A stretch of 44,564 nucleotides of DNA, taken from IMG/VR virus record IMGVR_UViG_3300045243_000019, positions 1 through 44,564 of that record, one strand, 5' to 3'. This DNA comes from a virus. The position numbers and the translations under genes are program-made. Shown here piece by piece: positions 1,820 through 44,564 of the stretch. Numbering within the stretch: the first letter of the stretch is position 1; the number at the start of each line of letters is the position of its first letter. Under the pieces are notes generated by a model, which had not been told where the DNA came from, made no database searches, and saw only the letters and a program-made list of their open reading frames with translations.

Positions 1820-2824
1820 GTGCCGAGTGGAGAGATTGATATTCTGTTCGGGCGCAAGCCCTATAGACTGCAAGCCTCGGCCACTCATTTCCAGCACTTC
1901 TCGGTCCCCGCAAGACTGAACCCGGTCGGTAACTTCGTAAATACCGTCCTATTCGTACAGCCGACCGTCTCTGGTATCAATTGGGTCTGTCCACCGTCAG
2001 GCCCGAACGTCCCCAAGAAACAGTACGTGATGAACTTCGTGCAAGCGGACCGCTTCACGGGTGACGGTAATCCTGTCGTTTCAACGGTGGACGTGAGTGC
2101 GCTCACGGGGTTTGCTCCCGTCAATCCCGCGACCGCACAGAGGGGCTTCCAGAACGCAAGCGGGCATAGCGTTGCACAGATGGAAGGAGGTACGGTCGGG
2201 GCGTACCTGAATAGCAACGATCTCGCGCCGAGCGCCAGCGATTCAAAGCTGATGATTACGCCGGAGTATCGCTGGATTCTGCCGCCATGGACGGACTTCA
2301 CGGCGCCCATCCCGCTGTCTGGCCCGGGACTTGTTCTACACGAAGCGTTTGACCTTCAGGTGCCCAAGTGCTCCGGGGGAAATGATGTATTCGTGAACAT
2401 GGGGCATCTGTTCACCGATCCGAACGGGGTTCAGTTGACCTATAACGTGGCGGTGTTCCACAACAATCTGGCGAATCCTGGGGTAGGGATATCGCTAGAC
2501 GCTCCCACGCAGAACTACATCCTGACTAACCCGCTGGGGGTCGTTACTACCTATTGCACGCCTACGGCGGGGAGTTCGTTCTACACGCCCACGCCATGGA
2601 GTGGCTTCATGCACTTCGAGTGGTCCTGTAGTTATCAGCAGTTCCAGGCCGCATTACATGCCCTCGATGCGGCTTTTCCCGGCGTGCTGACGACATTCGA
2701 TCCCGCGCAATATCGACTCTCGACTACGCACCTGAACGCGGAGGTTCATACGCTGGGGTCAGCCGCAACGATAGAACTGGGCTGGTCTATGAAGAACTTA
2801 GAAATATGGACGGTGGGCAGTTAG
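1820..2824 (+). CDS. Tail fibre/spike 1, with shared N-terminal anchor
   Basis: This 334-residue protein (GTG start) begins with the anchor peptide SGEIDILFGRKPYRLQAS followed by THFQH, which is also present at the start of the next two genes. The rest is a beta-rich body with the look of a lectin or polysaccharide-binding jelly roll, ending ELGWSMKNLEIW. No lyase catalytic residues could be assigned. The anchor probably docks a variable receptor-binding body onto the same virion site as its two neighbours. Confidence 0.65.
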   Translation: MPSGEIDILFGRKPYRLQASATHFQHFSVPARLNPVGNFVNTVLFVQPTVSGINWVCPPSGPNVPKKQYVMNFVQADRFTGDGNPVVSTVDVSALTGFAPVNPATAQRGFQNASGHSVAQMEGGTVGAYLNSNDLAPSASDSKLMITPEYRWILPPWTDFTAPIPLSGPGLVLHEAFDLQVPKCSGGNDVFVNMGHLFTDPNGVQLTYNVAVFHNNLANPGVGISLDAPTQNYILTNPLGVVTTYCTPTAGSSFYTPTPWSGFMHFEWSCSYQQFQAALHALDAAFPGVLTTFDPAQYRLSTTHLNAEVHTLGSAATIELGWSMKNLEIWTVGS

Positions 2825-4222
2825 GTGCAACGCCGCACCTTTCTGTGCGGTCTCCCCGTTTTATTCACTGGTTGTAATGGTGACGAATTGGCTAGCGGAA
2901 ATATCGATATAAGGTTCGGGGCCAAGCCCTATCGCTTGCAAGCGTCGCCCACGCATTACCAGCACATGCCCATTGGCCCGAGGTACATTGCTCCATCGGT
3001 ATTCGTGCCCACAATCAATGTATCTAATGGGGCATCTTTTAATATAACCCCCCACGGCGGCCTAACCACCTTCCTGACTAAGTCCACATCTGCGCCGAAG
3101 CTGTGGGATCACGGACAGGATGGCGCGGGTGCGATCAATGGGGGATGGAGCGGGGTCTCCCCAACAAGCGCTTCAAATTCTTTAGCCAACATGGCTAACC
3201 GTACCTTCCCATTTCAGTTGTTTGGGTCTGCTACGGTTGTCCCACCCACGCCCTTCACGAGCGTTGCATTGGCGGCCTGCCATTACGACCCCACCGTGAC
3301 TAGTCTGGATGTTTTGGCATATGTGGATTATCCGGTGCCGGGTTCGGTCTTCTATTCCACATGGGACTATTACTTCCGTTGCGATGACAACTGGTGGTAT
3401 GACTTAGTTTCCCCGCACACCGGGCAGCACGATAACAATCACAAGTTCTATAACTCCTGCGTAGGCGGGAGCGGCCCTTTCCGCACGGATGCAGGCTCGG
3501 CCTCGGTTGCATGGACTGGTTATGCCGATCCGGGGGACGGGAGCACTGGCGGCCCGATCAGTAATACCGGCACCCAGAAGATAGATATGGACATTCCTTC
3601 GACGTTGGGGAATGTAATCGCCGTTCCCGACAACAATGGGCATTTCGCGTTCTGGGATCAGATCACCAACCCCTCGAATCCAACGGGCGGCCCGACCGGG
3701 AATGGCTGGAAGAAATGGTCGATTGTCATCAAATGGACTTCTGATACCACGGGGTATCAGTTCATGTATGACGGCAATGGGACCGGCAATCGCGGCCTGG
3801 GCAATTCCATCTTCTATCACGGTCCGACGATTCCATCGGGCAAGGCGCGCTGGCTTGAAGCGATCGGCAGTTGCTATGCGAGAAACCAGGGGCCGACCCC
3901 ATCCAGCGGTGCCGGTACCACATGGCAATCGGCCAACGGCAACCAGCCGGGCAAATATACCCAGTGGGGGTATCTCGCTAATACCTACTTCGATGTACAG
4001 ACTTCGGGCCTTGGGCGTTTCTACGCGACCAATACCTCCACTTTCACGATTGGCGGAACGCAGCTCGGGGAGATCCAGCCCTATACCAGCTGGGCGCCCA
4101 CTTCAGTGAATCTGACATTCAACCGAGCGAATCTCAGTAGTGGCACTGGAGCCCTGTGGTATGTGGACGAGGCCAACGGAATATCGCCTCCGGTACAGGT
4201 GGCCAACTTGGTGATTAGCTAA
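2825..4222 (+). CDS. Tail fibre/spike 2, lectin-like body, with shared anchor; start uncertain
   Basis: From the GTG at 2825 the protein is 465 residues; from the TTG at 2888 it is 444 and begins MASGNIDIRFGAKPYRLQAS, in register with its two paralogues. The later start has a GGTGA just upstream. The extra 21 residues carry RRTFLCGLP and LFTGC and look like a twin-arginine lipoprotein signal, which is odd for a virion protein. The body (about residues 130-370) has a WxxY/YFD pattern like concanavalin-type lectin or polysaccharide-lyase folds. The C-terminal 70 residues, with LGEIQPYTSWAPTSVNLTF, look like a small Ig-like domain. Confidence 0.65.
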   Translation: MQRRTFLCGLPVLFTGCNGDELASGNIDIRFGAKPYRLQASPTHYQHMPIGPRYIAPSVFVPTINVSNGASFNITPHGGLTTFLTKSTSAPKLWDHGQDGAGAINGGWSGVSPTSASNSLANMANRTFPFQLFGSATVVPPTPFTSVALAACHYDPTVTSLDVLAYVDYPVPGSVFYSTWDYYFRCDDNWWYDLVSPHTGQHDNNHKFYNSCVGGSGPFRTDAGSASVAWTGYADPGDGSTGGPISNTGTQKIDMDIPSTLGNVIAVPDNNGHFAFWDQITNPSNPTGGPTGNGWKKWSIVIKWTSDTTGYQFMYDGNGTGNRGLGNSIFYHGPTIPSGKARWLEAIGSCYARNQGPTPSSGAGTTWQSANGNQPGKYTQWGYLANTYFDVQTSGLGRFYATNTSTFTIGGTQLGEIQPYTSWAPTSVNLTFNRANLSSGTGALWYVDEANGISPPVQVANLVIS

Positions 4223-6037
4223 ATGGCAAGCGGAGAAATTGATATCACGTTCGGGCAGAAGCCCTACAAGCTTCAGGCATCGGCGGGTCACTTTCAGCAT
4301 CAGATTATGGGGGTAATAAACTCTGGCCCCCTTACCCCGCGGGGGCTTGCTGCCGTCGCAATCTCTCAGAATGAAATTGATCTGTCATGGAACGCTTCTT
4401 CCGGTACCGGGTTGCTTGGCTACCGAATCTACCGAGGGGGGGTGCAGATTGCCCAGCAGACGGGGGTCACTTATGCGGATGTGGGGCTATCGCCCGCTAC
4501 GCTATATAGCTATCAGGTCTCCGCTTATGGATCTAACTTTGAAACGGCCAAATCCCCCGCTGTTTCAGCTACCACGTTCGGCTCTGGAGCCGGGGCTTTT
4601 AATTTTTACATTGCCTTAGGCGGCAACGACGCGAATCCGGGCACGCTTGCACAGCCGTGGGCTATTACGAGTTTCAATAACTCTGGCAATGCGAACAATG
4701 CCAAGATGGCCGGCAAAAAGGTCGGCATCATTGCGGGGACTTACAATACCTCCTTGCTGACTTCCGGTCATACGGGCGCGGGCGATTATAGCTGGTCAAT
4801 CCTCAACATCCCTGCGGGCACGGCGGCGAATCCGACCTACATAGCCTCTTGCAACGCAAGCGGCGTTTATACCCCGCGCGTCGCCATCATCAATGTCGAC
4901 ACGCTTAATAACAATAATATTATGGGTGGAGGCGGCGGGCAGGCCGGCGGCGGAACGAGCAGCTATATCACTGTTGATGGCATAACGATCAACGGTAATA
5001 ACATAGGCGGCGGCGGGAGTAATGTAATAGCGCACCTGCTCGCATTCTGGGGCAATTTCAGTATCACCAACGCCAGCGCCGCGAGTGAGACTGGGATTAC
5101 GGTCCAGAATTGCGAAATCTACAATGTAAAGACGACGACGCACGCGGGCGGCCAGAATAGCGCCCTCATTTGGTTTGAGGGGTGCCACCACTGCCTCGTC
5201 CAAAACAATCTCCTGCATGATGCGACCTCGACCGACGTGACCGATATGGATCACGTCCATGCGGTCGAGGAATACGGTTGTCATGATAACCAGTTCCTTA
5301 ATAACACCTTCTACAATTGCAGCACCGGCATCGAGGACAAGCAGGGTTGTACCGGCACGGTCGTTGCTTATAACTACTTCTATAATGTCGGCAATTTTGG
5401 GGGCGGACAGTCCGCAGTATTCGAGGGGTTCGATGGGTATTTCGGCAATCCCAATACGGGCCCAGCCCCGATAAATTATGTCCTGCGCCACAATATTGTG
5501 GATGGCTGCGGGCCGCTTCACTTGGCGGATTTGAATACATCCTTCATTGCGCAGCCGCTGAATATCTATAACAACACGATCTACGACACCCGATCGGGCG
5601 CGACAGTGGGCTGGCAGTGCTACGCGACAGCCGCAAGCCTCCTGACGTATTACAACAATATCTATTACAGCACCGTGGGGACGGGCGGAGGCGCGGGTAA
5701 GAACGGCAAGCTCGTTACTGGGGCGCCCTCCACGCTGGTGACGCTGGATTACAACCGCTATTTCCAGGGATCTGCGAACTACACGAACATGTGGGGCGAC
5801 AACACGACGGCATTTAATACTCTCGCGACGTGGCAGACGCACACGGGGACTGAGGCGCATTCCAGCACTGGAGATCCGGTGTTCTCGGCCCCCATCGTAA
5901 GCGGCAGCGGACCTAACAAGTTCAAGCTCGGCGGCGCATCCCCGATCCTGGCCGCTGGTAGAACTGGCGGCCCGATGGGCGCATGGGATACGGGAGTGAC
6001 GCAGATTGGTTGTAACTTTGGGCCTTATTTAGGGTAA
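4223..6037 (+). CDS. Tail spike 3: anchor, FN3 domain and parallel beta-helix
   Basis: This 604-residue protein starts at an ATG that directly follows the previous stop. Residues 1-26 are the shared anchor (SGEIDITFGQKPYKLQAS, HFQH). Residues about 37-115 are a fibronectin type III domain (IDLSWNASSGTGLLGYRIYR, LSPATLYSYQVSA). The rest is a right-handed parallel beta-helix of the pectate-lyase/NosD type, recognised by repeated short Asn-rich rungs such as VQNNLLHDA, NQFLNNTFYNCSTGI and VVAYNYFYNV. Such spikes bind, and often cleave, capsule or O-antigen. Acidic candidates for catalysis exist in the rungs but cannot be assigned. Confidence 0.75.
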   Translation: MASGEIDITFGQKPYKLQASAGHFQHQIMGVINSGPLTPRGLAAVAISQNEIDLSWNASSGTGLLGYRIYRGGVQIAQQTGVTYADVGLSPATLYSYQVSAYGSNFETAKSPAVSATTFGSGAGAFNFYIALGGNDANPGTLAQPWAITSFNNSGNANNAKMAGKKVGIIAGTYNTSLLTSGHTGAGDYSWSILNIPAGTAANPTYIASCNASGVYTPRVAIINVDTLNNNNIMGGGGGQAGGGTSSYITVDGITINGNNIGGGGSNVIAHLLAFWGNFSITNASAASETGITVQNCEIYNVKTTTHAGGQNSALIWFEGCHHCLVQNNLLHDATSTDVTDMDHVHAVEEYGCHDNQFLNNTFYNCSTGIEDKQGCTGTVVAYNYFYNVGNFGGGQSAVFEGFDGYFGNPNTGPAPINYVLRHNIVDGCGPLHLADLNTSFIAQPLNIYNNTIYDTRSGATVGWQCYATAASLLTYYNNIYYSTVGTGGGAGKNGKLVTGAPSTLVTLDYNRYFQGSANYTNMWGDNTTAFNTLATWQTHTGTEAHSSTGDPVFSAPIVSGSGPNKFKLGGASPILAAGRTGGPMGAWDTGVTQIGCNFGPYLG

Positions 6038-6040
6038 CGC

Positions 6041-8131
6041 GTGGCACTTTATACAAGTATAGGCAATGTCGGCACCACGTCCGCAGGGACGATTGGGACC
6101 GGCACGCTACCGCTCGCGCCGCCGCCTGGCAGCATTGTCGTTATCTTTATCACGCAGGGCGGCAATGGAACCGGCGCCGTTTCCTGCTCGGGCTTCTCGG
6201 CCATCCCGACTCTTTCGGTTCTGAGTCTGCCGACCACCCATCAGTCATGGGGTAATGCGCTTTACAAGGTTGCAGGCGCCAGCGAGCCCACAAGCTATAC
6301 GGTCACGCTGAACGCGGCTAATTTCGCCACGACTCAGACCTATGTCTTTACGGGGCGCAATACAACTAGCCCGTTCACCGCCTCACTGGGGACTGTAGAC
6401 GGCGCTGCGGGCACCTCACCTTTCAGTATTGCACTGGGCGGCGTCACTGCCGCAGCGGGCGATGATGTCTTATGGGTCTCGGGCCTAAGCAATCAGTCAA
6501 CCTATAACGGTCCCTCGTTCACCGTCCCCACGGGCTTTACCAATTCATTAACCAGCACCAGCACGACCTCGTTCACGACTGGCGTCGTAGGCGCCGTCAA
6601 GGCTAACGTAGTTGCGGGGGCTACCGGCACCCTTACTGGGACTTTCTCGTGGACTGGCGGCGGCTCTAATAGCTGGGGCGGCTATGTCATTTCTATTGCC
6701 GGCACTGGGACCGTCCTGGGCAATGATGGCAGTAACTTTGTTACCCCCGTCAATGTGGTGCAGTTCAACACGACCGGGAACGCCATATCCTCCAGCGGAA
6801 CGCCCTTCTATGTAGCTAATAACACGGCAGCTCTCACGGCATGGATCAATGTCGGCTCTGCGGGCACATCAAATACGGCGAAGGTCGTCGTATACGATTC
6901 TGGCGGCGCGCGCGTAGCCATCAGCGCGGCCATCAATGTATCGACCACCGGGCTCAAGAGCGGAGCGATTTCCGCAGCCCTTACGGCGGGGAACACCTAT
7001 AGCCTGGTCGTGGTGCCGGATACTGGGACATTCGGCACCATATCCGATAGCGGGTCGAATGCCTTTGTCGATAAGCAATGGACGGCGGGGCACTTCCCCT
7101 ATAGTGCGCCGCCCGCAACGCTTCCCGCCGTTGACGCATCTGTTGGCCAGGCATTCATTGTCTACCTCACGGGGGCTGGTAACGCTTATAACCTCTCCTG
7201 CGCGACGGTTAGCCATTCGTTCACGATTGAAGCGGTAACCCTCAACGCCAGCTCAATCCATAACTATGTGATGCCAGCCTCTGCGGTCATGTTCGACCGC
7301 ATTCTTGGCATCTCAAATGACGACCAGATTCTGCTGGTATCCGCAGTTTCCTTCAATTTAAGCATCGGTTCGGTAACATTCGGCCCGGCAAGCAATGGAT
7401 TCCAAATCCCCGCAGTGACGTTCTCATCGTCGGTGGGTATCGCGCAGTTCTCCTATGTCCCGGGCAATATCACGATTGTCTCGGGCGGCGTTCCCTGCTC
7501 TTACGACTTCTCAAGCTATCCTGCGTTCAGGACTGCCGTGCAGCAGCTAATTGACGGGGATGATGCTTCCACGTCCAGCCTCTCAGTCTCGATCCTTGAT
7601 CTGATCGTTTCACTGGGCGAGCGCAGGGTATACCGGGATGTGCGATCCAGCACGCAGGACGTTGCACTTACACTCACCGTGACGGGCAATTCCGCTCCGC
7701 TCCCGATTGACCTGATCGAGCTGCGGTCGGTGTTCTTCCCCACCGGCATAACACTGGATTACATGCCTTATGAGCAGTTCCAGATGAACGTCCAGCGGCA
7801 GGGACAGACGGCACGGAAGCCGAATAACTATAGCTATGAGGGTGAAAACCTCGTCTTCTGGCCGGTTCAGCCTGATGGAACCGTCATCAACGGGCGCTAT
7901 ATCAAGCGCTTCTGCTCCATCGTCACCGAAGGGCTTGTGGGGAATGCGTTCTTTCAGCGCTTCCCTGATCTGTGGCTCTATGCCTGCCTCCTGGAAGCCG
8001 CCCCGTACGTGGGTGAAATAGCGCGCATGCCCGAATGGGAGAAGCGTTATCTCATGCTGGTGGAAGACGCCAAAGAGTACGAACTGCGCCGGTTTACTCG
8101 CGGCTCGAAGCTCCAGACGAGACTCCAGTAG
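6041..8131 (+). CDS. Adaptor (SU10/P22 gp4-type) fused to a large beta-rich N-terminal region
   Basis: This 696-residue protein (GTG start) has two parts. About residues 1-490 are beta-rich: a domain with PPPGSIVVIFITQGG, YKVAGASEPTSYTVTL and NVVAGATGTLTGTFSW, then strand repeats such as HSFTIEAVTLN. About residues 495-696 match head-tail adaptors: YPAFRTAVQQLIDGDD, LGERRVYRDVRSS, PIDLIELRSVFF, FPDLWLYACLLEAAPYV and WEKRYLMLVEDA. Adaptors extend the portal ring; family members are normally about 170-250 residues, so the fusion would place beta domains around the neck. The N-terminal domain resembles that of the gene at 36265. It precedes the gp10-like gene as in P22. Confidence 0.75.
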   Translation: MALYTSIGNVGTTSAGTIGTGTLPLAPPPGSIVVIFITQGGNGTGAVSCSGFSAIPTLSVLSLPTTHQSWGNALYKVAGASEPTSYTVTLNAANFATTQTYVFTGRNTTSPFTASLGTVDGAAGTSPFSIALGGVTAAAGDDVLWVSGLSNQSTYNGPSFTVPTGFTNSLTSTSTTSFTTGVVGAVKANVVAGATGTLTGTFSWTGGGSNSWGGYVISIAGTGTVLGNDGSNFVTPVNVVQFNTTGNAISSSGTPFYVANNTAALTAWINVGSAGTSNTAKVVVYDSGGARVAISAAINVSTTGLKSGAISAALTAGNTYSLVVVPDTGTFGTISDSGSNAFVDKQWTAGHFPYSAPPATLPAVDASVGQAFIVYLTGAGNAYNLSCATVSHSFTIEAVTLNASSIHNYVMPASAVMFDRILGISNDDQILLVSAVSFNLSIGSVTFGPASNGFQIPAVTFSSSVGIAQFSYVPGNITIVSGGVPCSYDFSSYPAFRTAVQQLIDGDDASTSSLSVSILDLIVSLGERRVYRDVRSSTQDVALTLTVTGNSAPLPIDLIELRSVFFPTGITLDYMPYEQFQMNVQRQGQTARKPNNYSYEGENLVFWPVQPDGTVINGRYIKRFCSIVTEGLVGNAFFQRFPDLWLYACLLEAAPYVGEIARMPEWEKRYLMLVEDAKEYELRRFTRGSKLQTRLQ

Positions 8132-16023: not shown

Positions 16024-17706
16024 ATGACGAATACTGTACTTGCCCCGCTTCCTTTCACGCGGGCATTTGACAATGCCGGCTTACCCCTCGGGGGAGGCTT
16101 GCTCTATACCTATCAGGCGGGGTCCACGATCCCCCTGGCTACCTATGCGGACCTTGCTGGAACCGTTCTAAACTCCAATCCCGTCGTTCTGGACTCTACC
16201 GGACAGTCCACGGTCCGCTATCAGCCCGGAGTCGCGTACAAGCTCGTATTAACCGATTCCACGGGGGCCACGCAGCTAGCCAGCCGCGATAATTACTATC
16301 CTCCCATAAGCGATCAGGCGAGCTTAGGCGCGGCTTTATACCCCCAGACGACGGCAGAGCTTGCGGCAGGCATTACCCCGACCAATTACGTCTTTAAGAT
16401 GTTCGATATCCGCCGTTACGGGGCCGACCCGACGGGGACGAATAACAGCGATACGGCCCTAGCGTCTGCGATATCGGTCTGTGGGACCACGGGAGGGACT
16501 ATTACCCTCCCGGCCGGGCTCTATACCTTCTCCAATCAGATAGCCCTTAACGCTAAGACCAGCATCATCCTGCAAGGGGACGCTGCGGCTACGGGGGGCG
16601 GACAGCCGGCCACCAGGGTGGCTTATCAGGGGACTCTATCCCCCTGGATCAATATGGATTCCTCGGTGGGATGCCAGTTGCGCGGCTTGCAGATCATGCA
16701 TACCAATGCATCCTTCACCGGAACCTATATCCGCTCGAACAACGATGGCACCCACGGAGACCCGGCGTTTATAGGGCTCTTTGACTGCACGGTGGGGTCG
16801 AGCATCGGGGGTACGGGGAATCTTCACCTCGACCTCAATAAGCACAATGCCTTCACCGCCGAGCGCTGCAACTTCATCTACGGCAACCCCTCGGTGCGTG
16901 GGGCTCAGTCCGGGGGCTATTCAAATTCCATCAAGTTCAGGGATTGCAGGTTCGGTAGTGGCCTTGTCGCCCCCGTACAGGACGGTGGGCAGGCGTGGAC
17001 CTTCGAGGGCTGCGATTTCGAGGCGCTGACCTCGGGAGCTGCGGGCGCGATTCTCTCCTCAGCCTCGGGCAGAACCTTCAACGGCCTGAATATTACCGGC
17101 TGTTGGTTCGGGGATGCGGCTTCCGTTACCGGAAGCTGGATCGACATTTACGGACAGTCCCTGATCCTCAAGGGCAACTATATCTCCGGTAATGCCTCGA
17201 ACTCGACCGCCGTAGTCCTGAGAACCTTCGTCAGTTCAGTGATTGAGGGAAACACCTTCGACACATTCCTCGTCGGTATCAACTTTGCCACCGCGACTTG
17301 TTCTGGCGTTGTTCTCAAGGGCAACACCTTTAACGCCGTCACGACGGTCATTTCCAACCCATCCAATATCGCGAGCGCGACGTTTGACTGGGGCGCTAAC
17401 TTTGGATTATCCAGCCCCGGAAGCACTCACGGAATCCTTGGTACCAATGGGGCTGATGTAAGTTCCACGGGGCTAATCACCCAATGGGGAACTGTAAACC
17501 CCGCCTCGTTCGGGGCTCATGCGATCACGCCTTTTCAGGTGCCATTTGCCACTGCTTGCTACAACGTGACCGCCACATTGAGCGGGGTAGCTGCAACCAC
17601 GGCGACGATCTTCATAAGCGCGCTAAGTACCACGGGGTTCACTTACACCATTCAGGACGGTAGCAGCACTACCGACTCATTTTTCTGGACTGCGATTGGT
17701 AAGTGA
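16024..17706 (+). CDS. Tail spike with head-binding-like N-terminus and pectate-lyase-type beta-helix
   Basis: This 560-residue protein begins with a virion-binding module (LPFTRAFDNAGLPLGGGLLY, VLDSTGQSTVRYQPGVAYKL) common to phage tail spikes and fibres. FDIRRYGADPTGTNNSDTAL at about residue 127 starts a right-handed parallel beta-helix of the pectate lyase 3 superfamily. The last 75 residues (TQWGTV, FATACYNVTATL, LSTTGFTYTIQD, FFWTAIGK) match the gp53-like C-terminal fibre domain used for trimerisation or receptor contact. Position corresponds to P22 gp9. It probably recognises or cleaves surface polysaccharide. Confidence 0.85.
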   Translation: MTNTVLAPLPFTRAFDNAGLPLGGGLLYTYQAGSTIPLATYADLAGTVLNSNPVVLDSTGQSTVRYQPGVAYKLVLTDSTGATQLASRDNYYPPISDQASLGAALYPQTTAELAAGITPTNYVFKMFDIRRYGADPTGTNNSDTALASAISVCGTTGGTITLPAGLYTFSNQIALNAKTSIILQGDAAATGGGQPATRVAYQGTLSPWINMDSSVGCQLRGLQIMHTNASFTGTYIRSNNDGTHGDPAFIGLFDCTVGSSIGGTGNLHLDLNKHNAFTAERCNFIYGNPSVRGAQSGGYSNSIKFRDCRFGSGLVAPVQDGGQAWTFEGCDFEALTSGAAGAILSSASGRTFNGLNITGCWFGDAASVTGSWIDIYGQSLILKGNYISGNASNSTAVVLRTFVSSVIEGNTFDTFLVGINFATATCSGVVLKGNTFNAVTTVISNPSNIASATFDWGANFGLSSPGSTHGILGTNGADVSSTGLITQWGTVNPASFGAHAITPFQVPFATACYNVTATLSGVAATTATIFISALSTTGFTYTIQDGSSTTDSFFWTAIGK

Positions 17707-41303: not shown

Positions 41304-42317
41304 ATGACTCAGCTTACAGGCACGACTAACGTCTTCGGCGTCACGAGCGCTGGCGGTATTCGTGAAGATCTCGAAGATGTGATTTGGGACTTGTTCCCAG
41401 AGGATACGTGGGCGGTTTCTAACCTCGATAAGGTTTCGGCCACGGCAACCACTCACGAGTGGCTTGCTCAGCAGCTCGCGGCTGCCGCAACCAATATCGG
41501 AATCGAAGGTGACGACGCTACCTTCACTTCACTGACCTCGCCGGCCCGCTTCGGCAACTACCTCCAGATCCTTTCGAAGACCTTCCTCGTGTCCGACACG
41601 TTGGAAGCGGTCAAGAAGGCTGGACGCGGTTCTGAAGTGTCGCGCGGTGCGATGGTGAAGATGCGCGAACTCAAGCGCGATATGGAATACGCCGTTACCC
41701 GCAACACGCTGGCCTCTGCCGGCGCCTCGGGCACTGGCCGCACCATGGGCGGCATTGAGACCTGGATCAACGGGTATCTGTCGAACGCCCTGGTCGGCAC
41801 GACCGTTACGGCCTCAACCGCCGTCACGATCTCGACCAGCACGGTTGCGACGACCCCTGGTGCCGCATCGGGTATCCCGACCACGGCAGTGACTGACGGA
41901 ACGGCTAACACGCTGGTTGCGAGTGCGCTTAACTTCGCGCTCCAGGGTGCGTGGTCGAACGGCGGCGATCCTTCGGTGATTCTCACCACGGCGAAGAACA
42001 AGGCGCTAATCGATGCTTTCACCAGCATTGCGACGCGCTTCGTTAACGTGGACGCTGCGACGCAGTCACCGATTATCGGTGCTGCCAACGTCTACGTGAG
42101 CGACTTCGGCCGCCATACGGTCGTCCTGCATCGCTATATGCGCGATCAGAACGTCCTGTGCCTCGATCCGAACTATTGGGCGATTGGGTTCCTCCGTCGT
42201 CCCATGGCTCGGCAGCTCGCGCGTACTGGTGACGGCACCAAGTACCAGATCATCACGGAATGCACGTTGGTTGCTCGCAACCAGCAGTCATCCGCGAAGA
42301 TCGTAGGCTGTGCCTAA
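41304..42317 (+). CDS. Major capsid protein (SU10 family)
   Basis: This 337-residue protein has the SU10/DUF5309 pattern: REDLEDVIWDLFPEDTWAVS, TTHEWLAQQLAAAATNIGIE, RFGNYLQILSKTFLVSDTLE, GRTMGGIETWINGYL and PNYWAIGFLRRPMARQLART, GDGTKYQIITECTLV. It folds as an HK97-type shell protein. A strong terminator follows at once, which would favour high capsid output. Confidence 0.95.
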   Translation: MTQLTGTTNVFGVTSAGGIREDLEDVIWDLFPEDTWAVSNLDKVSATATTHEWLAQQLAAAATNIGIEGDDATFTSLTSPARFGNYLQILSKTFLVSDTLEAVKKAGRGSEVSRGAMVKMRELKRDMEYAVTRNTLASAGASGTGRTMGGIETWINGYLSNALVGTTVTASTAVTISTSTVATTPGAASGIPTTAVTDGTANTLVASALNFALQGAWSNGGDPSVILTTAKNKALIDAFTSIATRFVNVDAATQSPIIGAANVYVSDFGRHTVVLHRYMRDQNVLCLDPNYWAIGFLRRPMARQLARTGDGTKYQIITECTLVARNQQSSAKIVGCA

Positions 42318-42323
42318 TGGATC

Positions 42324-42354
42324 GGCCCCGGGACTGACACCGGGGCCTTTTCTT
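42324..42354 (+). terminator. Rho-independent terminator after the capsid gene
   Basis: GGCCCCGG (42324-42331) pairs with CCGGGGCC (42340-42347), an 8-bp GC stem with an 8-base loop, followed by TTTTCTTT. It lies 6 bases after the capsid stop. Partial read-through or a new promoter must serve the genes downstream. Confidence 0.9.
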
Positions 42355-42473: not shown

Positions 42474-42830
42474 ATGAGCGACTTCATGGAAATAGACCCA
42501 GTGACCGGGATCAAGACGGACTGGAAATGGAACGAGAACGACCAGACCTACACGCTCGCCCGCACGGCTGACGTAGAGCCAGTCTTGGACTACACCAAGG
42601 CCATGGCCAATGAAGTGGGCAAAGATAGCGAAGGCGTCAAGAAAGGCTGGCACCTCTACGCCAAGATCCCGCCCATCGTCATCGTCCAGATGCGAGCGAA
42701 GGGCATTAACGTATTCGATGGCACACACCAGAAACGGATGTTTGCCGAGATTAATGAACACTATCCGCACCTGAAGACCACGACGGGGCAAGAGGGGGCC
42801 TCGCACACCAAGAAAATCTATCTTGGATAA
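42474..42830 (+). CDS. Conserved phage protein downstream of the capsid gene
   Basis: This 118-residue protein begins SDFMEIDPVTGIKTDWKWNE and has VEPVLDYTKAMANEVGKDSE, WHLYAKIPPIVIVQMRAKGI, NVFDGTHQKR, a pattern known from hypothetical proteins just after capsid genes in podoviruses. Its role is unknown; it may complete or stabilise heads. The upstream ribosome site is weak (GGGATT), so the structured RNA before it may matter. Confidence 0.75.
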   Translation: MSDFMEIDPVTGIKTDWKWNENDQTYTLARTADVEPVLDYTKAMANEVGKDSEGVKKGWHLYAKIPPIVIVQMRAKGINVFDGTHQKRMFAEINEHYPHLKTTTGQEGASHTKKIYLG

Positions 42831-44304
42831 GTACCAGGAAATAGAGCTCCTCGCAGACGGTCCGGACGATCAGCTCAAGAAAGCATGGGTAATCTGCCAC
42901 GAACTACTCATACAAGACCCAACGGACCCCCGAGCCCTAATCAATGCGTGCTTTGTCGCGCAGCGGTTGGGATTACTCGGCCCCGCCTACCATTTGGGGC
43001 GGTCGGCAACTCAGCTCTACCCCAAAGAGCCCAACGGGTGGATTAACTTCGGCTATGCGTGTGCCCAGCTCTGGCGCACCAAGGAAGCCGAGCGCTATTA
43101 CTTCGAGGCCCTGAAGCTCGCCAAGGCTTCGGGGAGCGTCAAGAGCCAGATATTCGCTCTGCTGAACCTCGGAGCGCTCTACGTAGACCTCGGGATGTAT
43201 GACCTCGGGGCTCCAGTGATGGATAAGCTCCTGGCGCTCGAGCCGGATAACGCCAAGGCGCTCTGTAACGTAGCGATCTGCAAGCTAGCCCGCAGAGATT
43301 GGAGTGGCTGGACTGATTACCACAAGCTCATCGGGACGCCCTATCGACCCAAAGTGAATTACAGGGACGAGCCCGAATGGGATGGCACACCGGGACAAAC
43401 GGTCGTGCTCTATGCAGAGCAGGGGATCGGGGACGAAATCCTGTTCGCCTCGATGATCCCCTCGGCGGCAAGGGTCGCTAAAAAGGTCATCTTTGACTGT
43501 GACGGCAGGCTAGAGGGCTTGTTCCGCCGCTCACTTCCCGAATGCACCGTCTACGGTACGCGGGTAAAGAACGAGAAGTGGGCGAAGGAAGACCGGGACT
43601 TCGATTGCAGTCTTGCGGTAGGCCAGTTGGGTGAATTCTTCCGCACTACGGAGGAGTCATTCCCCCGTGTCGCATACCTCAAAGCGTGCCCCATCCGCTC
43701 AAAGCAATGGAAGTGGGATAAGCCCGCGATAGGCATTGCCTGGAGTGGGGGAGTTTCACGCACTGGGGCGAGAGTCCGCCGCGCGCCGCTTGAGGACTGG
43801 CTACCGCTCTTTAAGTCGATAGATGCGACCTTTGTCTGCCTCCAGTACCGGGACGCGGAGGAGGAAATAGATGACTTCCGCAAGAAGCATGGCGTGGATC
43901 TTGTTCAGTATCCGTGGGCAACTCTCACGCACGACTATGACGACACTGCGGCTCTTGTTTCGAGATTGGATTGTGTGGTGGGCGTGCCGACCGCCGTTAT
44001 TCACCTCGCTGGGGCGCTTGGCGTCAAAACGTTTGCGATGAAGTCAGAAGCCTCCTGCTGGAAGTACAGCAGCGGGCTTCCGTTTCATCCCTGCACGCTC
44101 ATTGAGCACAAAGGAACATGGGAAAAGACGATACAGGCGACTGTCCCGCTTATCCGGGCTCACTTAGGGTTTTCATCGGCTACGACCCAAGACAACCCAT
44201 CGCCTACAACGTTCTTCAACATTCCATCGTCCGTCACGCAAGCCGTCCGGTCAGCATTACCCCGCTTATCCTCGGACAGCTCCCGCTCAAGCGGCGCGGA
44301 CTGA
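42823..44304 (+). CDS. TPR-glycosyltransferase fusion (GT9-like catalytic domain)
   Basis: This 493-residue protein (TTG start) has TPR repeats over about residues 15-160 (PNGWINFGYACAQLWRTKEA, LLNLGALYVDLGMYDLGAPV, NAKALCNVAICKLARRDWSG). The rest is GT-B/GT9-like: VVLYAEQGIGDEILFASMIP, VIFDCDGRLEGLFRRSLPEC, IGIAWSGGVSRTG and LVSRLDCVVGVPTAVIHLAG, ALGVKTF, where the C-terminal part binds the nucleotide sugar. TPR-linked transferases often act on proteins. The last 187 bases overlap the next glycosyltransferase gene in another frame. Confidence 0.85.
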   Translation: MDKYQEIELLADGPDDQLKKAWVICHELLIQDPTDPRALINACFVAQRLGLLGPAYHLGRSATQLYPKEPNGWINFGYACAQLWRTKEAERYYFEALKLAKASGSVKSQIFALLNLGALYVDLGMYDLGAPVMDKLLALEPDNAKALCNVAICKLARRDWSGWTDYHKLIGTPYRPKVNYRDEPEWDGTPGQTVVLYAEQGIGDEILFASMIPSAARVAKKVIFDCDGRLEGLFRRSLPECTVYGTRVKNEKWAKEDRDFDCSLAVGQLGEFFRTTEESFPRVAYLKACPIRSKQWKWDKPAIGIAWSGGVSRTGARVRRAPLEDWLPLFKSIDATFVCLQYRDAEEEIDDFRKKHGVDLVQYPWATLTHDYDDTAALVSRLDCVVGVPTAVIHLAGALGVKTFAMKSEASCWKYSSGLPFHPCTLIEHKGTWEKTIQATVPLIRAHLGFSSATTQDNPSPTTFFNIPSSVTQAVRSALPRLSSDSSRSSGAD

Positions 44305-44564
44305 CGGAGTTCACCTATTCGCGTTATCTGGTCCCATGGCTATGCGGCTATGACGGACAAGCCCTGTTCCTTGATGCGGATATGGTCGTTAAGGGCGATA
44401 TCGCAGAGGTTTTCGCGGATTTTGATGGCGAAGTCGCCATGCAGATCCACCAGCCGCAGTTCGAGTGGGCATCGGCCATGCTCTACAACTGTGCTCGGTG
44501 CAGAGTCCTATCGCCCGAGTTTGTAGAGGACAAGCGCAACGTCCTGTTCGACTACCACTGGACT
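44118..44564 (+). CDS. GT8-like glycosyltransferase, N-terminal part (continues at base 2)
   Basis: ATG 44118 follows AAAGGA and opens a frame that runs off the right end and continues to 382 on the circle, 233 residues in all. It begins GKDDTGDCPAYPGSLRVFIG, YDPRQPIAYNVLQHSIVRHA: the strand FIGYDxRxxxAYxVLxxSI is typical of this family. FLDADM at residues 84-89 holds the DxD motif (D86, D88) for metal and nucleotide sugar. The substrate is unknown; with the TPR-glycosyltransferase and a methyltransferase it forms one cassette. Confidence 0.85.
   Translation, partial: MGKDDTGDCPAYPGSLRVFIGYDPRQPIAYNVLQHSIVRHASRPVSITPLILGQLPLKRRGLTEFTYSRYLVPWLCGYDGQALFLDADMVVKGDIAEVFADFDGEVAMQIHQPQFEWASAMLYNCARCRVLSPEFVEDKRNVLFDYHWT
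44438..44564. repeat. Right copy of the 127-bp terminal redundancy
   Basis: Identical to bases 1-127; see the left copy. Counting this stretch once gives a unique circle of 44437 bp. Confidence 0.95.

Follow-up and report, generated by a model that had tools for sequence, protein, structure and literature searches.

A cassette of three enzyme genes, situated between the capsid gene and a connector gene of an environmental short-tailed phage, probably directs the cytoplasmic glycosylation of a phage head protein, most likely the capsid protein (MCP) itself, with a TPR-linked glycosyltransferase (TPR-GT) priming, a GT8-like transferase (GT8) extending and a SAM methyltransferase (MT) capping the glycan. 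A broader reading, which we hold tentatively and at a little less than even chance, is that environmental short-tailed phages possess a capsid-dedicated O-glycosylation of the OGT/FlmG kind, in which a fixed, capsid-matched TPR initiator is combined with exchangeable tailoring enzymes in a glycan diversification slot that would resemble an O-antigen locus but serve the virus particle.

The window, i.e., the whole stretch of DNA analysed (IMGVR_UViG_3300045243_000019, 44,564 nt), has ends that share exactly 127 bp, and the genome is circular. It is of the short-tailed-phage type and encodes an SU10-type capsid protein, a 786-aa portal, a scaffold and an Hc3 head-closure protein (Pfam/PHROG). 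On the circle, the cassette is bordered by the capsid gene and p3982 on one side and by the connector gene on the other (plus strand, as for all cassette and flanking features given here). The MCP gene (41304-42317) specifies a protein of the SU10 type with HK97 fold (Pfam SU10_MCP, E=1e-76; Foldseek matches to the Pa223 and SU10 capsids). Just 3' of it and before p3982, a strong terminator-like hairpin with a stem of eight G-C pairs and a T tract (42324-42347), recognized by consensus match only, may keep the level of the enzymes below that of the capsid protein, as expected for catalysts. The small conserved head-region gene p3982 (42474-42830; phrog_3982, E=9e-9), which adjoins the MCP gene in nearly all relatives, is followed by the genes for TPR-GT (42823-44304), GT8 (44118 across the window ends to 382), an HNH homing endonuclease (354-827; HNH_3, E=3e-8; PHROG HNH families) and MT (803-1375). 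The original prediction had placed three enzymes here, and all of them proved to be intact open reading frames at these coordinates; they are not consecutive, as it had held, since the HNH gene separates GT8 from MT. From p3982 through MT, successive genes overlap (p3982/TPR-GT by 8 nt, TPR-GT/GT8 by 187 nt, GT8/HNH by 29 nt and HNH/MT by 25 nt), which suggests that they share one message. The far edge of the slot is formed by a virion structural gene (6041-8131), the C-terminal approximately 200 aa of which correspond to phrog_2941 (E=4e-21); we call it the connector from its position, by comparison with SU10 gp9-gp10-gp11, and the phrog_2941 connector marks the slot edge in nearly all relatives. 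Three large virion-region genes, one with an fn3 domain, lie between MT and the connector (1820-6037) and have relatives in very few loci.

The designation of the first enzyme as TPR-linked and GT9-like was borne out for the TPR part and for a GT-B fold, while its tie to GT9 is weak by sequence. TPR repeats were detected by Pfam (TPR_14 above cutoff; TPR_2, E=1e-5), and the AF2 model (mean pLDDT 91) shows helices at residues 3-156 followed by alternating alpha/beta elements to about residue 447, i.e., an N-terminal TPR superhelix (residues 1-156) and a GT-B domain (residues 160-452). The first Foldseek matches of the model were SPINDLY and OGT; at approximately 12% identity and TM-scores of 0.19-0.39 over the whole chain, these indicate a shared architecture rather than membership, and sequence matches to the same proteins are confined to the TPR part. 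By sequence, heptosyltransferase II was matched with E=0.11 (1psw, over 52 positions), a GD motif is conserved in TPR-GT, and the Pfam scan yielded no match to PF01075 (GT9). Asp204 is invariant in all 62 homologues and, judged by its motif, would occupy the position of the GT9-type catalytic aspartate. Compared with the nearest relative, locus L009, dN is 0.19 and synonymous sites are saturated. The 187-nt overlap with GT8 (44118-44304) is common to L009, and the TPR-GT frame is unconstrained there; overlaps of more than 50 nt occur in 33 of 53 TPR-GT/GT8 pairs. A functional role of the TPR-GT tail (residues 462-493) was considered and rejected: it is disordered in the model, and dN/dS is 1.45 in the tail region that overlaps GT8.

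TPR-GT has bacterial relatives, which at 7 of 76 loci are encoded near a flagellin gene (about one would be expected by our rough estimate). Its relatives from Caulobacter match at about 30%. A scan of viral contigs with the single TPR-GT sequence gave no matches, whereas family alignments did find relatives. By tblastn, only three matches to TPR-GT were obtained among 50,697 phage records; the only record with all three enzymes itself stems from a metagenome, and a cultured phage carrying the whole cassette was not found in this set.

Since the window ends are identical over 127 bp, the GT8 gene is continuous across the circle: its 5' part (44118-44564) resumes at 128-382, bases 1-127 of the 3' part (1-382) being a duplicate of the window end, and it encodes 233 aa. 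The protein matches the Pfam profile Glyco_transf_8 (PF01501) with E=3e-4 and 20.9 bits, below the cutoff of 24.3, and its nearest solved relative by sequence is WbbM (E=3e-4), an O-antigen enzyme; the GT8 protein 5gvv was matched with E=0.23. An intact DxD motif of this GT-A transferase had been predicted, and indeed Asp86 and Asp88 are retained in 99 of 99 slot homologues. The assignment of the third enzyme as a SAM methyltransferase likewise held, both by its SAM motif and by profile (phrog_24759, E=4e-20; Methyltransf_23, E=6e-6, with a score of 26.6 just below the cutoff of 27). Among 106 homologues, the signature D51-x-G53, K132-x-L-x-D136-G-R-N-A-H141 is nearly invariant; within the SAM motif, Asp51 and Gly53 are present in 100% and Gly55 in 97%. 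Between the window and L009, dN/dS is 0.18-0.20 for GT8 and 0.10 for MT, similar to the virion genes HC3 (0.11) and p3982 (0.10). Purifying selection thus acts on both GT8 and MT, and to judge from their sequences the cassette enzymes look functional. The HNH gene, which is missing from L009, is probably a passenger. At another locus, L001, an HNH gene sits between TPR-GT and MT instead.

That this layout is more than chance follows from its recurrence. When viral contigs were scanned with family alignments of the three enzymes, 235 new loci emerged. The slot, running from MCP and p3982 through TPR-GT, GT8, MT and extra glycan genes to the connector, is shared by more than 100 contigs that encode an SU10-type capsid and are otherwise diverse. 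In the list of loci that combine two or more of the families, which includes contig duplicates, the commonest order by far was SCAF-MCP-p3982-TPR-GT-[GT8, MT, others]-connector. Where enough flanking sequence was available (78 loci), MCP was encoded within four genes upstream of TPR-GT in 65 and p3982 in 64 cases, and the connector within five genes downstream in 63. About 15 contigs with PF13252 capsids carry TPR-GT, MT and GT8 in the corresponding slot. When the scan was seeded with MCP, TPR-GT occupied the slot at about a third of the loci (about 27 of 79); at the remainder, a few of which are incomplete, some slots are empty and some hold a single gene of approximately 210 aa. In one cassette-less locus, L281, the single slot gene (2527-3159) encodes an Anp1-like glycosyltransferase of a family unrelated to the cassette transferases. 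The p3982 gene occurred with or without the cassette in the MCP-seeded scan, and we therefore rejected it as a dedicated cassette partner.

Related gene groups were also seen elsewhere. Caulobacter phage CcrColossus (L002:7623-12176) has, 3' of its tail genes, homologues of GT8 and MT that adjoin genes for a sialyltransferase and a GT9 protein, and Stenotrophomonas phage DLP_6 (L003:9379-10648) has adjacent MT and GT8 homologues. In the siphovirus-like genome of Tetraselmis viridis virus S20 (L006:6455-12038), a comparable slot between the head genes and Hc1 holds several glycosyltransferases, sialyltransferases and a homologue of MT.

Besides the three families, the slots contained 92 non-redundant extra genes. 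Scanned with Pfam, these are rich in glycan families, among them several methyltransferase families, FkbM, GT9, Anp1, GT4 and GT29, and include radical SAM/SPASM proteins, DegT sugar aminotransferases and a nucleotidyl transferase. None of these families was detected by Pfam in 96 control genes drawn at random from the neighbouring virion region, the longest members of which had been removed by hand. No family of flippases or membrane glycosyltransferases, a feature of gtr serotype-converting cassettes, appeared among the slot genes scanned with Pfam.

Which virion protein might be modified was approached through co-inheritance. On FastTree phylogenies, TPR-GT and the connector each require one change of capsid type, GT8 four and MT three, all of these being small numbers. 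Among SU10-type loci, distances of the TPR-GT glycosyltransferase domain correlated with those of MCP with r values of 0.64-0.80. In sets A and B, this correlation exceeded those with p3982, SCAF, GT8 and MT (bootstrap intervals above zero); against the connector (v6041), the interval lay above zero for sets A and B, though no longer for set D with its 20 loci. The TPR domain, too, co-diverges with MCP. In set C, the portal equals MCP in how closely it tracks TPR-GT. A unique co-divergence of MCP was thus not upheld: with the portal (set C) and the connector (set D) also tracking TPR-GT, the capsid protein is not singled out. TPR-GT follows the head genes while GT8 and MT move, which places TPR-GT in a vertically inherited head module and assigns GT8 and MT to the tailoring genes; the latter two look as if they had been exchanged between phages. 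Such a combination is compatible with TPR-GT being an initiator that recognizes a head protein.

Within MCP, residues 156-203 form a Thr/Ser-rich loop. Its length is 38.8 aa in cassette phages versus 29.8 aa in those without cassette, and a TTPG motif is present in 55 of 101 of the former and in none of 39 of the latter. However, cassette presence amounts to a single split of the MCP tree, TPR-GT or its partners being retained across the whole cassette side sampled, so that the correlation of loop and cassette is phylogenetically non-independent and a lead only; as independent proof, the loop motif was rejected. MCP contains no NxS/T sequon; should it be the acceptor, this speaks for O-linkage.

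We infer the acceptor, the linkage, the order of the steps and the benefit of the cassette from these observations and from known enzymes. The TPR domain of TPR-GT would bind the acceptor head protein, a proposal for which the flagellin glycosyltransferase FlmG (PMC7591256) provides a good analogy. The GT-B domain would then add the first sugar, O-linked, to Ser or Thr, most plausibly in the capsid loop at MCP residues 156-203, whereupon GT8 would attach a further sugar and the methyltransferase would cap the glycan. Differences in GT8, MT and other tailoring enzymes between phages would result in different types of surface glycan. Altered adsorption, resistance to capsid-binding factors and particle stability are possible benefits.

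The same enzymes could act on another virion protein of the gene block, i.e., p3982, the connector, the portal or the fn3/tail-spike surface proteins (1820-8131 and 16024-17706), which we consider unlikely. The surface proteins are rich in Ser, Thr and Asn with many NxS/T sequons (12 in v4223, 11 in v6041 and 7 in v2825), v4223 has an fn3 domain, and the portal equals MCP in its co-divergence with TPR-GT; on the other hand, v1820 to v4223 are seen in very few other loci, in contrast to the widespread cassette, p3982 shows poor correlation with TPR-GT and is also found in its absence, and the spike is distant from the slot. The original prediction of a virion target is supported by the position of the slot in the head genes, the concentration of glycan enzymes there, the vertical inheritance of TPR-GT along with capsid and portal, and a fold resembling that of TPR protein O-glycosyltransferases. 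It had named the spikes as an example; our findings favour a head protein instead.

Families GT8, GT9 and FkbM are common in polysaccharide loci. It is accordingly conceivable, though distinctly improbable in our judgement, that the target of the cassette is a polysaccharide of the host surface (LPS/O-antigen or capsule), modified for instance to stop progeny from re-adsorbing or to exclude other phages, given that its glycosyltransferase and methyltransferase families are also known from LPS and polysaccharide pathways and that the closest solved sequence relative of GT8 is WbbM, an O-antigen enzyme. A TPR domain would be unusual for a polysaccharide enzyme, no flippase or membrane glycosyltransferase family occurs among the scanned slot genes, and a polysaccharide target would leave both the position among virion genes and the co-inheritance with head genes unexplained. 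Alternatively, the slot could be a tolerant insertion site filled by morons that share no common target. Homing endonucleases insert there too (the window HNH, L001, L183 and L217), and gene order and content vary; the chance of this being the whole story is nevertheless very small, as slot content is selectively glycan-related compared with the flanking controls, and TPR-GT or its partners are kept across the sampled cassette side of the MCP tree with invariant catalytic residues. Phage glycosyltransferases frequently act on DNA (PMC12619734), but hypermodification of phage DNA by the cassette transferases appears extremely improbable: the scan of part of the open reading frames, covering larger ones of the window, revealed no base-hypermodification enzyme, the cassette lies in the virion block away from replication genes, and the modelled fold of TPR-GT is that of protein O-glycosyltransferases.

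Glycosylation of phage-particle proteins has so far been proven in few cases. If glycosylation of a head protein by the cassette is true, the conserved, swappable slot beside the capsid gene in a broad group of uncultured podoviruses would mean that sugar-coated heads are common in nature, and would be a genetic marker for predicting them. The cassette also offers a small, possibly capsid-specific module for studying acceptor choice by TPR domains and a way to ask what roles capsid sugars have in stability, adsorption and escape from binding factors.

The system had been predicted to be undescribed, which is too far-reaching: its kind is already known from mycobacteriophages. Che8, Corndog and Myrna glycosylate capsid and tail-tube proteins with their own glycosyltransferases (Freeman et al. 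2023, as cited in PMC12363180 and PMC12619734), and Corndog carries an O-methyltransferase and glycosyltransferases between portal and protease, within its head block, for which capsid modification was suggested by its authors (PMC4351075). As in these phages, the cassette transferases are encoded within the virion gene block; unlike them, the present cassette has a TPR-linked GT-B enzyme, none being reported in the available parts of those accounts, and capsid type and slot differ. Mycobacteriophage homologues of TPR-GT, GT8 or MT were not detected by tblastn in the 50,697 phage records (1e-5). A literature search, which left most subscription journals outside its coverage, found nothing on TPR transferases combined with capsid glycosylation, and we came across no earlier account of the arrangement in this form.

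By layout and description, the closest functional parallel to TPR-GT is FlmG, the soluble flagellin O-glycosyltransferase of Caulobacter, which selects flagellin by an N-terminal TPR domain, has a C-terminal GT-B domain and is necessary and, given the donor, sufficient for flagellin modification (PMC7591256). TPR-GT has the same TPR plus GT-B layout; it differs in that its acceptor is probably a capsid protein and that a tailoring glycosyltransferase and a methyltransferase adjoin. With SPINDLY and OGT it shares the TPR plus GT-B architecture of protein O-glycosyltransferases, its glycosyltransferase domain being weakly GT9-like, unlike theirs. The TibC/BAHT autotransporter heptosyltransferases are also GT-B enzymes that glycosylate a protein, but they are dodecameric and have an N-terminal beta-barrel and an iron finger in place of the TPR domain (PMC4358343); one phage relative of the TPR-GT glycosyltransferase domain is annotated as tibC. 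In protein A064R of PBCV-1, a viral glycosyltransferase domain is joined to a predicted methyltransferase, the capsid glycan concerned being methylated; likened by description, A064R differs in belonging to an algal virus, in being a single multidomain protein and in serving N-glycans (PMC5408694). From the mycobacteriophage systems, the present cassette is set apart by its proposed TPR-linked initiator, by enzymes for which tblastn gave no mycobacteriophage match, by the fixed MCP-p3982-connector slot and by its breadth in uncultured phages.
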